Position numbers and translations under genes: made by a program. The notes beneath the pieces were generated by a model. The model did no database searches. It was not told the origin of the DNA and worked only from the letters and a program-made list of their open reading frames with translations. A stretch of 64,000 bases of DNA, taken from contig NZ_CP133548.1 of assembly GCF_031198435.1 (NCBI RefSeq), positions 3,196,001 to 3,260,000 of the forward strand, read 5' to 3'. The stretch's first letter is position 1; every line of letters starts with the position of its first letter. Positions 32,002-34,968 of this stretch are shown here, piece after piece. The DNA comes from Pleionea litopenaei. Lineage in GTDB: Bacteria; Pseudomonadota; Gammaproteobacteria; Enterobacterales; Kangiellaceae.

Positions 32002-32538
32002 TTGAGTCCATTAGCGAGTCGTTTGGGTGATGGCAAAGTCATTTTAAAGTCGCTGCTAACCGTATTTCTGCTCACTAGCAGCTGGGTGTCGGTGCGAGCC
32101 GATGCAGTTAGCGATCTAAAGCAACGTATTCAAGACGCTCATGGCAAGGTCATCTATGTCGACTTTTGGGCATCTTGGTGTAAGCCCTGTCGACATTCTT
32201 TCCCTTGGATGAACGATATGAAGCGCAAATATGAGTCACACGGTTTATCCATTATCACCGTGAACTTGGATAAAGAAAGGCACTTAGCTGAAGGTTTTTT
32301 AAAAGAAAACCCTGCCGAGTTTGACATTATTTATGACGAGAATGGCGATACAGCCCGTCAATTTAAGTTGAAAGGCATGCCAATGAGTTTTGTGATTGAT
32401 CGCTCGGGTAAACCTGTGTCGAGTCATGTTGGTTTCAATGAAGAAAAACAAAAAGAGTACGAAAACGAACTTCGCAAGTTATTGCAAGCGGGTATGGAAA
32501 ATCAAACGCTGAAAAAAGAGGCGACGAATGAACAGTAA
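32002..32538 (+). CDS. TlpA-like exported thioredoxin
   Basis: Periplasmic thioredoxin-fold protein of the TlpA/ResA group. The start codon is TTG at 32002, supported by AAGAGGAG seven bases upstream; no ATG is available before the signal peptide (about residues 12-34, cleaved near VRADA). The active site WASWCKPC has its cysteines at 60 and 63. The cis-Pro region GMPMSFVIDRSGK is conserved. At 178 residues it is a single domain. Its end overlaps the DUF4266 gene by 11 bases, making it the first gene of a tightly coupled four-gene operon. It probably reduces or isomerises thiols in a partner, plausibly the Cys-tailed lipoprotein next to it. Confidence 0.9.
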   Translation: MSPLASRLGDGKVILKSLLTVFLLTSSWVSVRADAVSDLKQRIQDAHGKVIYVDFWASWCKPCRHSFPWMNDMKRKYESHGLSIITVNLDKERHLAEGFLKENPAEFDIIYDENGDTARQFKLKGMPMSFVIDRSGKPVSSHVGFNEEKQKEYENELRKLLQAGMENQTLKKEATNEQ

Positions 32539-32767
32539 AGGTATCAGAGCGGCAGTAAAGCCAGCGACATTGATTGGCTGCTTATTAATATTAGCCGGTT
32601 GCGGAACATTAGGTGTCGAACCCTGGGAGCGAGATTTACTGGCCAAGCCACAAATGGCAATAGTGTCTGACCCTATCGAATCTGGGCTTGATGATCATAT
32701 TTATTTCTCCAAAGAAGCGACCAGTGGTGGTCGCAGTTTTGCTGGCGGAGGCTGCGGATGCAATTAG
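32528..32767 (+). CDS. DUF4266 small lipoprotein with Gly/Cys-rich tail
   Basis: A 79-residue lipoprotein. The lipobox ILAGC puts the lipidated cysteine at 25. The mature part is short: EPWERDLLAKPQM, a conserved-looking block of the DUF4266 family, then the C-terminus SFAGGGCGCN with cysteines at 76 and 78. The paired cysteines two residues apart at the very end are striking and could form a redox, metal or covalent-cofactor site. It overlaps the thioredoxin gene by 11 bases and the DUF3570 gene by 10, so production of the three proteins is coupled. Function unknown; the family name is from memory. Confidence 0.85.
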   Translation: MNSKGIRAAVKPATLIGCLLILAGCGTLGVEPWERDLLAKPQMAIVSDPIESGLDDHIYFSKEATSGGRSFAGGGCGCN

Positions 32768-34080
32768 TTGATAAAAAACAGGCGACCCATCGAGGTCAAA
32801 TTGCCAGTGCAATTGCAGCGGCGTCGTGCGGTCTACTTGGAACACCGGTACAAGCAGACGGTGAGTTCTGGGACTTTTCAAAGAACTGGTCATTCGACAC
32901 GGGCTTTTTATATTACAGTGAAACCGATCGAGTCAGTGCCGTTGAAGGCGTCTTTAGTGCGACACGAGAAGCCGACGTAAACGATATTTTTAATTTTAAG
33001 GTCGTACTCGATAGTTTAACGGGCGCTTCACCGTCCGGTGCTGTTGCTCAGCCAGGAGTGCAAACCTTCACTCGCCCTTCCGGACGAGGTCAGTATCAGG
33101 TCGAAGGTGGCGAAATTCCCTTAGATGATACTTTTCGAGATACTCGGTTACAGATGAATGCTCAATGGACCAAGCCAGCTTGGGAAGCGGTCACCTCCAG
33201 CTACGGTGTTCACTTTTCTAAAGAGTATGACTACCTATCACTTGCATTGAATGGCAGCCTCGCGTGGGATTTAAACAACAAGAACTCAACGTTCTCGGTC
33301 GGCTTGTCGTATGCGTCTGATACCTATGAGCCAGAAGGTGGTATTCCCGATCCATTGGCGTCGATGGTTGTCGATTTAGGACAGTTTCCGACCGACGATG
33401 ATTATCAAGCGGCGTTTGACAGTACGCGTGTAGACTCGAGTGATACTCGTACAACCACCGATCTGCTTCTTGGTTGGACGCAAGTCATTAATCGACGTAC
33501 GATCATGCAGTTCAATTATTCTTACTCGAATGTTTCGGGTTACTTGACCGATCCTTTCAAAATTTTCTCGATTGTGGATGCCGGTGGCGTTGCTCTTGAT
33601 AATCGTTATGAAAGTCGTCCTGACTCTCGAACCAAACACAGTATTTTTTGGCAAACTAAGCACCATTTTGATGAGTCAGTTGCTGATGTTTCGTTTCGCT
33701 ATATGACGGATGACTGGGAAATAGAGTCGCAAACGGTAGAATATAAACATTACTTTTGGATCGGTGAAAATAGCTTTATCGAGCCACAATTTAGATACTA
33801 TCAACAAACGGCTGCAGAGATTTATCAACCTTATGTTCTTGACGGACAGCCATTGCCAGAGTTTATTTCTTCCGACAATCGTTTGGGTTCCTTTACTGCC
33901 TATACGTTGGGGCTGAAATATGGTTGGAAAACTGGTGACGGCAATGACATGGCGTTGCGCTTATCGTATTATCAACAAACGGCCGATGACGAAATTGCAA
34001 GTCACCCCGGCGTGTTGGCAGATTTAGAGATTTACCCTGATCTGGACGCGGTATTCTTGCAATTGACCTATTCATTTTAG
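32758..34080 (+). CDS. DUF3570 outer-membrane barrel protein with ApbE-type flavinylation motif
   Basis: Exported protein with a signal peptide (cleavage after about residue 33, PVQA-D) and many alternating-hydrophobic strands, ending in FLQLTYSF, as expected for an outer-membrane barrel. It matches the DUF3570 family in FLYYSETDRVSAVEGV and FTRPSGRGQY. Near residue 85 it has DSLTGAS (Asp85 to Ser91; 33010-33030). This fits the D-x-x-(S/T)-G-A-(S/T) pattern at which ApbE enzymes attach FMN to the last Ser/Thr. An ApbE gene follows directly. That the barrel is flavinylated at Ser91 is therefore a specific inference, not shown. Start ATG overlaps the DUF4266 stop. Confidence 0.88.
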   Translation: MQLVDKKQATHRGQIASAIAAASCGLLGTPVQADGEFWDFSKNWSFDTGFLYYSETDRVSAVEGVFSATREADVNDIFNFKVVLDSLTGASPSGAVAQPGVQTFTRPSGRGQYQVEGGEIPLDDTFRDTRLQMNAQWTKPAWEAVTSSYGVHFSKEYDYLSLALNGSLAWDLNNKNSTFSVGLSYASDTYEPEGGIPDPLASMVVDLGQFPTDDDYQAAFDSTRVDSSDTRTTTDLLLGWTQVINRRTIMQFNYSYSNVSGYLTDPFKIFSIVDAGGVALDNRYESRPDSRTKHSIFWQTKHHFDESVADVSFRYMTDDWEIESQTVEYKHYFWIGENSFIEPQFRYYQQTAAEIYQPYVLDGQPLPEFISSDNRLGSFTAYTLGLKYGWKTGDGNDMALRLSYYQQTADDEIASHPGVLADLEIYPDLDAVFLQLTYSF

Positions 34081-34086
34081 AGCGAT

Positions 34087-34968
34087 TTGAACGAGCAATT
34101 TTCAACGACAGAGTTTGGTTTTCGCGGCAGCTTTTTGGCCATGGCCAGTCCGTGCGAGTGTCTTATAGAGACTCAAGACTTAGACGAAGCGAAAGCCATC
34201 TTTGAATTAGTTAAAAATGAAACGGCTCGAATTGAACAAAAGTACAGTCGCTACCTCTCTACAAACTTGTGTGCTGCGATCAATGCGAGTCGCGGCATTC
34301 CTGTGCCTATCGACGATGAAACCTTTCAGTTACTTGAGTTTGCCAACCAGTGCTTTGAAATTAGTGAGGGGTTGTTTGATTTAACGTCGGGTGTTTTACG
34401 AAAAGTCTGGCGGTTCGGACCAGAAGGGAAGTTTCCCGCCGCCGCAGATGTTAGTGCTCTGTTGCCCAACATAGGTTGGTCGAACATTCGGTATGATCAC
34501 AATCAAGTCACGTTACCGGAAGGCATGGAAATTGACTTTGGCGGGATTGGTAAAGAATACGCCGTAGACCGGTGCGCTCAACTCATCATGGCCGCTTATC
34601 CTGAGATCTCTGTTTTGATCAATTTCGGTGGTGATTTACGAGTGACCGTTGCGCCAAAAACTCGCGAATATTGGATGGTTGGAGTGGATAGCCAAGTGAC
34701 ACCGGTTAATCACTCAGTGCGCTTAAAAACAGGGGGCGTATGCACCAGTGGTAATACTGAGCGATTCATTATGCATCAGGGTAAACGGTATGGTCATATT
34801 TTAAACCCTATGACAGGGTATCCCCCAGAAGGCTCGCCAGCGACGGTCACCGTGCTGGCTGACCAATGTCTGTCGGCTGGTTTAATTGCAACCTTAGCCA
34901 TTTTGCAGGGAGCCCAAGCAGAAGCTTTTTTAAAAGCGCAAGGCGTGAAGTATTACCTACAGCTCTAG
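34087..34968 (+). CDS. apbE: ApbE-family FAD:protein FMN transferase
   Basis: Transfers FMN from FAD onto a Ser or Thr of a target protein. GSFLAMASPCECLIE is the N-terminal block, FDLTSGVLRKVWRFG the FAD region, IDFGGIGKEYAVDRCAQLI, LINFGGDLRV and TGGVCTSGNTERF with HILNPMTGYPP the remaining family motifs. Only a TTG (34087) is available as start. The same frame is closed upstream by the DUF3570 stop two codons earlier, so no signal peptide can be hidden upstream. The enzyme therefore looks cytoplasmic, unlike the usual lipoprotein or exported ApbE. The six-base spacing and the motif in DUF3570 suggest that protein is its target. Confidence 0.92.
   Translation: MNEQFSTTEFGFRGSFLAMASPCECLIETQDLDEAKAIFELVKNETARIEQKYSRYLSTNLCAAINASRGIPVPIDDETFQLLEFANQCFEISEGLFDLTSGVLRKVWRFGPEGKFPAAADVSALLPNIGWSNIRYDHNQVTLPEGMEIDFGGIGKEYAVDRCAQLIMAAYPEISVLINFGGDLRVTVAPKTREYWMVGVDSQVTPVNHSVRLKTGGVCTSGNTERFIMHQGKRYGHILNPMTGYPPEGSPATVTVLADQCLSAGLIATLAILQGAQAEAFLKAQGVKYYLQL

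Follow-up and report, generated by a model that had tools for sequence, protein, structure and literature searches.

Whether a barrel protein of the outer membrane can carry a covalently bound flavin, and on which side of the inner membrane that flavin would be attached, is the question raised by a four-gene module on the forward strand of a 64,000-nucleotide stretch of the Pleionea litopenaei genome (NZ_CP133548.1, positions 3,196,001 to 3,260,000; hereafter the window, numbered from its first letter). In order, the genes encode a thioredoxin-like protein, a DUF4266 lipoprotein, a DUF3570 protein and an ApbE flavin mononucleotide (FMN) transferase. The first-pass annotation of this DNA took DUF3570 for an outer-membrane barrel flavinylated on Ser91 by the adjacent ApbE. 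We think it reasonably probable that the four genes together form an outer-membrane redox unit working with flavin and thiols, in which FMN is loaded in the cytoplasm before export.

The DUF3570 gene (32758..34080) encodes 440 residues that match PF12094 along the whole profile (475 bits, profile positions 2–427 of 427). Residues 85–91 do read DSLTGAS (33010..33030), and the last of them, Ser91 (codon TCA, 33028..33030), is the predicted FMN attachment site. The ApbE gene (34087..34968; PF02424, 198 bits) begins six bases after the DUF3570 stop (34080 to 34087), as first described; it lies in the reading frame of DUF3570, with a TAG and two codons between the two genes (window 34078–34087). 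The operon starts earlier than the annotation gave, with two genes 5′ of DUF3570. The first of the module (32002..32538; Redoxin PF08534, 61 bits; exact start codon uncertain) encodes a TlpA/ResA-like thioredoxin with CKPC as its CxxC and a hydrophobic stretch at the N-terminus, which is probably periplasmic; a gene of this kind stands 5′ of DUF4266 in most related loci. The second (32528..32767; PF14086, 78.7 bits) encodes the DUF4266 lipoprotein, with a lipobox LAGC (Cys25) and the C-terminal sequence GGGCGCN.

Flavinylation of the DUF3570 family is already established, which lowers the novelty of the annotation's main claim while supporting it; for the window protein, covalent FMN is very probable by homology. 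Meheust et al. 2021 (PMC8238504) reported that a Chlorobium luteolum DUF3570 is flavinylated by its cognate ApbE in Escherichia coli, with the modification abolished only when the serines of both its motifs were changed, and described DUF3570 clusters with a thioredoxin-like protein and DUF4266, 316 without DsbD. The window has the same four families, with the [ST]GA[ST] motif and a cognate ApbE in the cluster. The main text of that paper does not contain ‘barrel’, ‘cytosolic ApbE’ or ‘hydrazine’, and uses ‘outer membrane’ once, of siderophore transporters. It was the only publication found on DUF3570 and DUF4266, and no other paper on a flavinylated outer-membrane barrel was found among titles and the beginnings of abstracts, a coverage outside which most subscription papers and preprints fall. 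The available text of PMC11334425 names the outer membrane among the places of flavinylated domains and does not mention DUF3570.

Motif conservation and the linked ApbE enzymes

The pattern D-x-x-[ST]-G-A-[ST] occurs once in the 58 non-overlapping open reading frames of the window (20,244 residues), where 0.09 occurrences are expected from composition. Chance as the source of DSLTGAS is ruled out, with 0.002 matches expected in a 440-residue protein against the one found, in addition to its conservation. We collected 131 DUF3570 rows, dropping frames shorter than 300 residues or below 30 phmmer bits and copies with identical last 200 residues. Of these, 107, the window included, have a same-strand ApbE no more than 3.5 kb away (ApbE-adjacent rows), and 66 of the 107 were found by a scan with ApbE patterns. 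Gly89 and Ser/Thr91 are kept in all 107; 93 match D..[ST]GA[ST], two have Glu for Asp and 12 follow a relaxed form. [ST]GA[ST] appears once in 87 of the proteins, more than once in 13, and in no strict form in 7. The window protein has a single copy, and five residues further on it reads SGAV in place of a second.

Another 21 rows, each with 1 kb or more of sequence downstream, have no adjacent ApbE: the Gly is gone from 17 of these (SSAS, SAAS, SNAS), and four retain the motif; in three further rows with less flank the motif is eroded. For three of the four keepers (L035, L066, L085), a linked-type ApbE (365–396 bits) is encoded at another place in the genome or on the opposite strand. Conversely, in seven genomes no DUF3570 was seen next to the linked-type ApbE within the piece examined; six of these encode DUF3570 elsewhere, in eight copies that carry [ST]G[AS][ST] (Asn replaces Asp in one, and one reads SGST) and two that are eroded. 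Two of the loci, L113 and L120, lie near contig ends, and DUF3570 may be missing there for that reason. In a tree of 87 rows built with the motif columns left out, the eroded rows and the fourth keeper, L097, form one clade of 20 rows (hereafter the sister clade; Shimodaira–Hasegawa-like approximate likelihood-ratio support 100), and L089 is the only eroded row outside it. One further DUF3570 (L219:958-2085) reads DSVSSAS beside a DUF4266 with a flavin-like stretch, and may be a second motif loss. The annotation had held that its proposal would fall if the motif were not conserved in DUF3570s beside ApbE; there it is conserved throughout. In the Nitrospirota the linkage of motif and ApbE is imperfect.

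The window ApbE has neither the signal peptide nor the lipobox of an exported ApbE. No hydrophobic stretch follows its TTG start, and a longer N-terminus is not possible because of an in-frame TAG nine bases before that start. A hydrophobic stretch after the start codon is found in none of the 39 linked ApbEs reached through DUF3570, versus 23 of 24 comparators, and all 39 carry Glu157 and Gly265 (window codons 34555..34557 and 34879..34881). The comparators were other ApbEs from 21 genomes, first 24 and then 15 more; hydrophobicity was computed for the first 24 only, and one of the other 15 (L293) shows no obvious signal peptide. At the same two positions 37 of the 39 comparators have Gly and Asp (23/24 and 14/15), one has Gly/Glu and one, L292, Gly/Gln, the Gln possibly reflecting a misalignment; no comparator carries the Glu/Gly pair, and the fragment G011:C14 is outside this count. 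Another 70 linked ApbEs, contributed by the scan with ApbE patterns, all have Glu/Gly, although their Glu157 count is biased because the scan patterns included Lys-Glu, which leaves the 39 unaffected; one of the 70 has a hydrophobic stretch. With the whole frame upstream counted, 4 of 110 linked ApbEs reach the hydrophobicity threshold, one of them at L166. Frames below 240 residues, duplicates, a second lipoprotein ApbE (L166:284-1306), L206 and L001 were dropped from the ApbE rows. Bit score by itself does not tell the ApbE groups apart, because L206, the DUF3570-linked ApbE of L040, scores only 186 bits and still has Glu/Gly.

Beyond its PF02424 match, the window ApbE conserves the active-site Ser and His and has Gly265 at the position of the active-site Asp (FmnB Asp301, V. 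cholerae Asp285). In an alignment with FmnB (PDB 7esa), the window residues Ser221, His237 and Gly265 pair with positions 237, 253 and 281 of the chain, which, if the offset is 20, are FmnB Ser257, His273 and Asp301, given in a review as the proposed catalytic triad Asp301-Ser257-His273 (PMC12052999). Metal site 1 of the E. coli enzyme consists of D280, T166, T284 and D283 (PMC4767422), and the spacing to the Thr suggests that D280 is the residue replaced by Gly265. Directly after the active-site Lys stands Glu157, which we propose as the substitute for the missing Asp. Judged by this signature and by their N-termini, the linked ApbEs are a separate subfamily without a signal peptide, and for this reason FMN is probably attached in the cytoplasm. 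Precursors of outer-membrane proteins stay unfolded before export. The published constructs, which used truncated signal peptides and left most DUF3570 in the cell pellet, suggest that an ApbE can modify an unassembled barrel chain (PMC8238504). The cytoplasmic ApbE of Klebsiella pneumoniae, like the window enzyme, has no signal peptide and a target of its own; that target, a fumarate reductase, is a soluble cytoplasmic enzyme (PMC12052999), whereas the predicted target in the window is an exported outer-membrane barrel.

Barrel model and putative redox partners

AlphaFold2, run on the window DUF3570 with 65 aligned relatives, predicts 16 strands of at least 11 residues and a few short ones, with a mean predicted local distance difference test score (pLDDT) of 89.0 and a predicted template modelling score of 0.83. 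With the N-terminus counted as periplasmic, all seven periplasmic turns have 2–5 residues and five of the eight extracellular loops have 19–38 (residues 90–126, 191–228, 262–289, 351–378 and 410–428). The best Foldseek matches are the FadL, OmpG, AlgE and PelB barrels, with template modelling scores of 0.3–0.45 by query length, and no PDB chain matches DUF3570 by sequence up to an E value of 10. The even strand number, the short turns and long loops and the fold match to solved barrels, all in prediction, support the earlier assignment of an outer-membrane barrel. The N-terminal hydrophobic stretch reaches a 12-residue mean of 1.86 in the window protein and at least 1.5 in 60 of 69 rows beginning MQL. 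One relative (L083:1390-4125) has 912 residues, about 350 of them extra at the C-terminus without a Pfam match over cut-off, and may be a two-barrel fusion.

In the model, Ser91 follows strand 3 (residues 76–89), at the start of the 37-residue loop 90–126, which strand parity would make the extracellular end of that strand. Along strand 3, mostly hydrophobic residues (78, 80, 82, 84) alternate with polar ones (79, 81, 85), a pattern by which Asp85, Gly89 and Ser91 probably face the lumen. Invariant residues concentrate on the same side of the barrel: the outer half and the extracellular loops contain 23 of the 24, compared with 269 of all 396 mapped residues (P 0.0009); for strand residues alone the count is 11 of 12 in the outer half (P 0.003). 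Glu156, Asp158, Pro288, Arg291, Arg314, Asp318, Trp320, Arg346 and Gln350 are kept in most rows, even without the flavin motif. Glu55, Arg287 and Arg375 accompany the linked ApbE type, and all 20 rows of the sister clade have other residues there. The FMN-binding domains of NqrC and RnfG likewise carry FMN on a Ser/Thr of this kind of motif; their folds differ from that of DUF3570 and contain no barrel. FMN-bind domains are small and soluble (PMC11334425).

The conserved tail of DUF4266 (GGGCGCN, codons 32744..32764) may act as a flexible CxC redox arm. It ends in CGCN in 133 of the 134 copies of the main set, duplicates kept, and in CGCR or CGCEQ in many Nitrospirota copies; AlphaFold2 gives the last ten residues (tail 70–79) a pLDDT below 50. 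By the E. coli sorting rule, Ser or Ala after the lipobox Cys sends a lipoprotein to the outer membrane. This residue is Ser or Ala in 103 of 134 copies and Gly in the window, which, taken over the family, points to an outer-membrane location. Before the tail, DUF4266 reads FSKEASSGG-like in the flavin form of the module and AREGARGAEG-like in the haem form described below. As a second flavin target of the standard motif DUF4266 was rejected, since SKE[AG][ST]SGG has no Ser/Thr at the last motif position.

Proposed path and its alternatives

Gene order, motif, missing signal peptide, residue signature and barrel parity, read from the sequence or predicted from it, are the basis of the following scheme, in which we infer timing, surface position, direction of flow and substrate. 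In the cytoplasm, ApbE would take FMN from flavin adenine dinucleotide (FAD) and attach it to Ser91 of the freshly synthesized DUF3570 precursor. The flavinylated chain would next be exported and assembled into a barrel by Sec and the β-barrel assembly machinery (BAM), and its FMN would come to sit where strand 3 ends on the extracellular side, at the outer mouth of the pore or within it. Electrons may pass from the periplasmic thioredoxin to the CxC tail of DUF4266, on to the barrel FMN if the tail can reach it, and from there to an acceptor outside, so that reducing equivalents would cross the outer membrane without haem. Mtr-type porin–cytochrome conduits (MtrCAB) also place a barrel with redox partners on a proposed electron path across the outer membrane. 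The window module has a proposed covalent FMN and a CxC lipoprotein instead, with no multihaem cytochrome among its four genes, and we do not claim membership in that class.

Several observations weigh against this scheme. The FMN of the window protein is assigned from homology, and that protein has one clear site where the published C. luteolum relative has two (PMC8238504). Signal peptides were judged from hydrophobicity alone. Because the eroded rows are essentially one clade, motif loss in the Proteobacteria counts as about one evolutionary event, and an independent-pairs test is not significant; within that clade, L097 keeps SGAS with no linked-type ApbE found in its genome. Residues near the outer rim could serve any ligand. 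The Nitrospirota add three further points: motif-bearing DUF3570s are paired with ApbEs having a hydrophobic N-terminus (L258, L264, L266, L269), three eroded copies still have an adjacent ApbE (L270–L272), making the link between motif and ApbE imperfect there, and five copies keep the motif with no ApbE directly beside them, two of them in genomes without any ApbE match.

The Nitrospirota sample behind these points comprises 21 loci and covers 19 of the 25 genomes that gave a match; more copies in six genomes and second copies in G462 and G635 are outside it. Motif and adjacent ApbE occur together in six loci, two with the linked type (L234, L253) and four, named above, with the ordinary type. 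The motif is eroded without an adjacent ApbE in seven loci. It is present without an adjacent ApbE in L255, L260, L261, L262 and L268, of which L262 is cut by a contig end and L255 has an ordinary ApbE about 2.4 kb beyond its thioredoxin gene; the whole genomes of L260 and L268 (G490, G505) contain no ApbE match.

Since motif-bearing DUF3570s stand beside ApbEs with a hydrophobic N-terminus in this phylum, FMN is not loaded in the cytoplasm throughout, and some of the wider family probably load it in the periplasm. The same could apply to the window: its barrel would be flavinylated in the periplasm, either by the linked ApbE exported along an unrecognized route or by another exported ApbE, the linked one serving something else. 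The window genome does contain two other ApbEs with hydrophobic N-termini. We nevertheless consider this unlikely, given that the 39 linked ApbEs lack such an N-terminus and that the linked ApbE tracks motif-bearing DUF3570 even when the two are not adjacent; moreover, outside the module itself, neighbour families reach at most 32 of 73 loci.

Somewhat less likely still is a flavinylated barrel whose FMN has a structural, gating or ligand-binding role and takes no part in electron transfer across the outer membrane. Transport channels (FadL, OmpG, AlgE) are among the fold matches, and many of the invariant residues are polar and near the outer mouth, as such a role would have it; against it, the barrel is regularly accompanied by a CxC lipoprotein and a thioredoxin-like protein, and c-type cytochrome genes belong to the module in the sister clade. 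That the motif is unused in the window member, its linked ApbE serving instead, with a changed metal site, to traffic flavin or hydrolyse FAD, is very improbable: the linked ApbEs do lack the Asp aligned to FmnB Asp301 of the proposed triad (PMC12052999), but the motif Gly and acceptor are invariant beside ApbE and the DUF3570–ApbE pair of a relative is active (PMC8238504), although that ApbE may or may not bear the Glu/Gly swap.

The haem form and the neighbouring genes

The flavin module has a counterpart in the same genome. A second DUF3570, with an eroded SAAS, lies in the operon L034:5754-12058 (contig C1, about 1392753–1399057), together with a 977-residue HzsA-like lipoprotein with two CxxCH motifs, a lipobox and matches to HZS_alpha and PD40, an SH3-domain protein, a small barrel-like protein, a thioredoxin and DUF4266; no ApbE was seen within the 13 kb examined around it. 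An HzsA-like c-type cytochrome is present in all 15 sister-clade loci with enough flank and absent from the 81 ApbE-linked loci that span 6 kb or more, among which the upstream reach varies; the gene was seen with the sister clade and Nitrospirota relatives only. Five of six extended sister loci have more genes with one and two CxxCH motifs beyond it.

The value of the sister clade as a clean flavin-free control is weakened. In four of the six extended loci (G055, G042, G073, G418) an ordinary ApbE stands at the cluster edge, about 7–12 kb from DUF3570, and the haem form may therefore not be free of flavin; in the other two (G051, G039) such an ApbE is not within the piece or not near. Sister-clade genomes contain other ApbEs as well, L097 keeps its motif, and three eroded Nitrospirota copies have an adjacent ApbE. 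A Gly-to-Ala change in the K. pneumoniae fumarate reductase still allows about half flavinylation, according to a review (PMC12052999). Haem-form clusters with an ordinary ApbE at the edge are found at L273–L276, and L273–L275 contain, in addition, divergent genes, one of about 840 residues with two CxxCH motifs and one of about 420 with a single motif, as well as a 540-residue gene. L270–L272 are of mixed form, with an HzsA-like gene, an eroded SSAS, an ApbE with a hydrophobic N-terminus and GG..KGY changed to ASVGKLW.

A bolder version of the scheme describes a haem-free conduit in which a dedicated ApbE subfamily with a relocated acidic residue flavinylates the unfolded precursor, FMN travels through SecYEG and BAM to the outer mouth, the CGC tail reaches it through the lumen, and a haem edition exists beside it, flavin and haem being interchangeable. 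We regard this as unlikely, and slightly more so in view of the edge ApbEs of the haem-form clusters. Interchange of flavins and cytochromes has been proposed for other systems and is not said of DUF3570 in the available text (PMC8238504).

Neighbouring genes were surveyed in 73 related loci. An iron role was considered: a permease family resembling EfeU occurs in 13 of them (its match to EfeU is weak, 19 bits versus a cut-off of 255), a cupredoxin in 7 and a DsbD-family gene in 5, and none of these stands beside the window operon, where no gene pointing to the metal reduction suggested in the annotation was seen. In Colwellia and relatives, a Cupredoxin_1 protein (L118:9056-9487) and the weakly EfeU-like permease (L150:9551-10462) lie 3′ of the module, a hint of iron. 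The DsbD-family gene directly 3′ of the module in Rhizomicrobium electricum (L161:6806-8875) is a possible electron donor. A large hybrid sensor (L106:7676-11755; Reg_prop, Y_Y_Y, HisKA, response regulator and AraC-type helix-turn-helix), whose single-linkage cluster reaches 32 of the 73 loci, is perhaps a regulator or a chance neighbour.

The usual picture for exported flavinylated proteins is that their ApbE is exported too. If loading in the cytoplasm is true of the DUF3570 barrel, a flavin can ride a protein chain through the export machinery, and the cell surface can hold a covalent flavin. With the flavin and haem forms of the module both present in the genome of P. litopenaei, the proposed interchange of flavin and cytochrome becomes testable within one organism.

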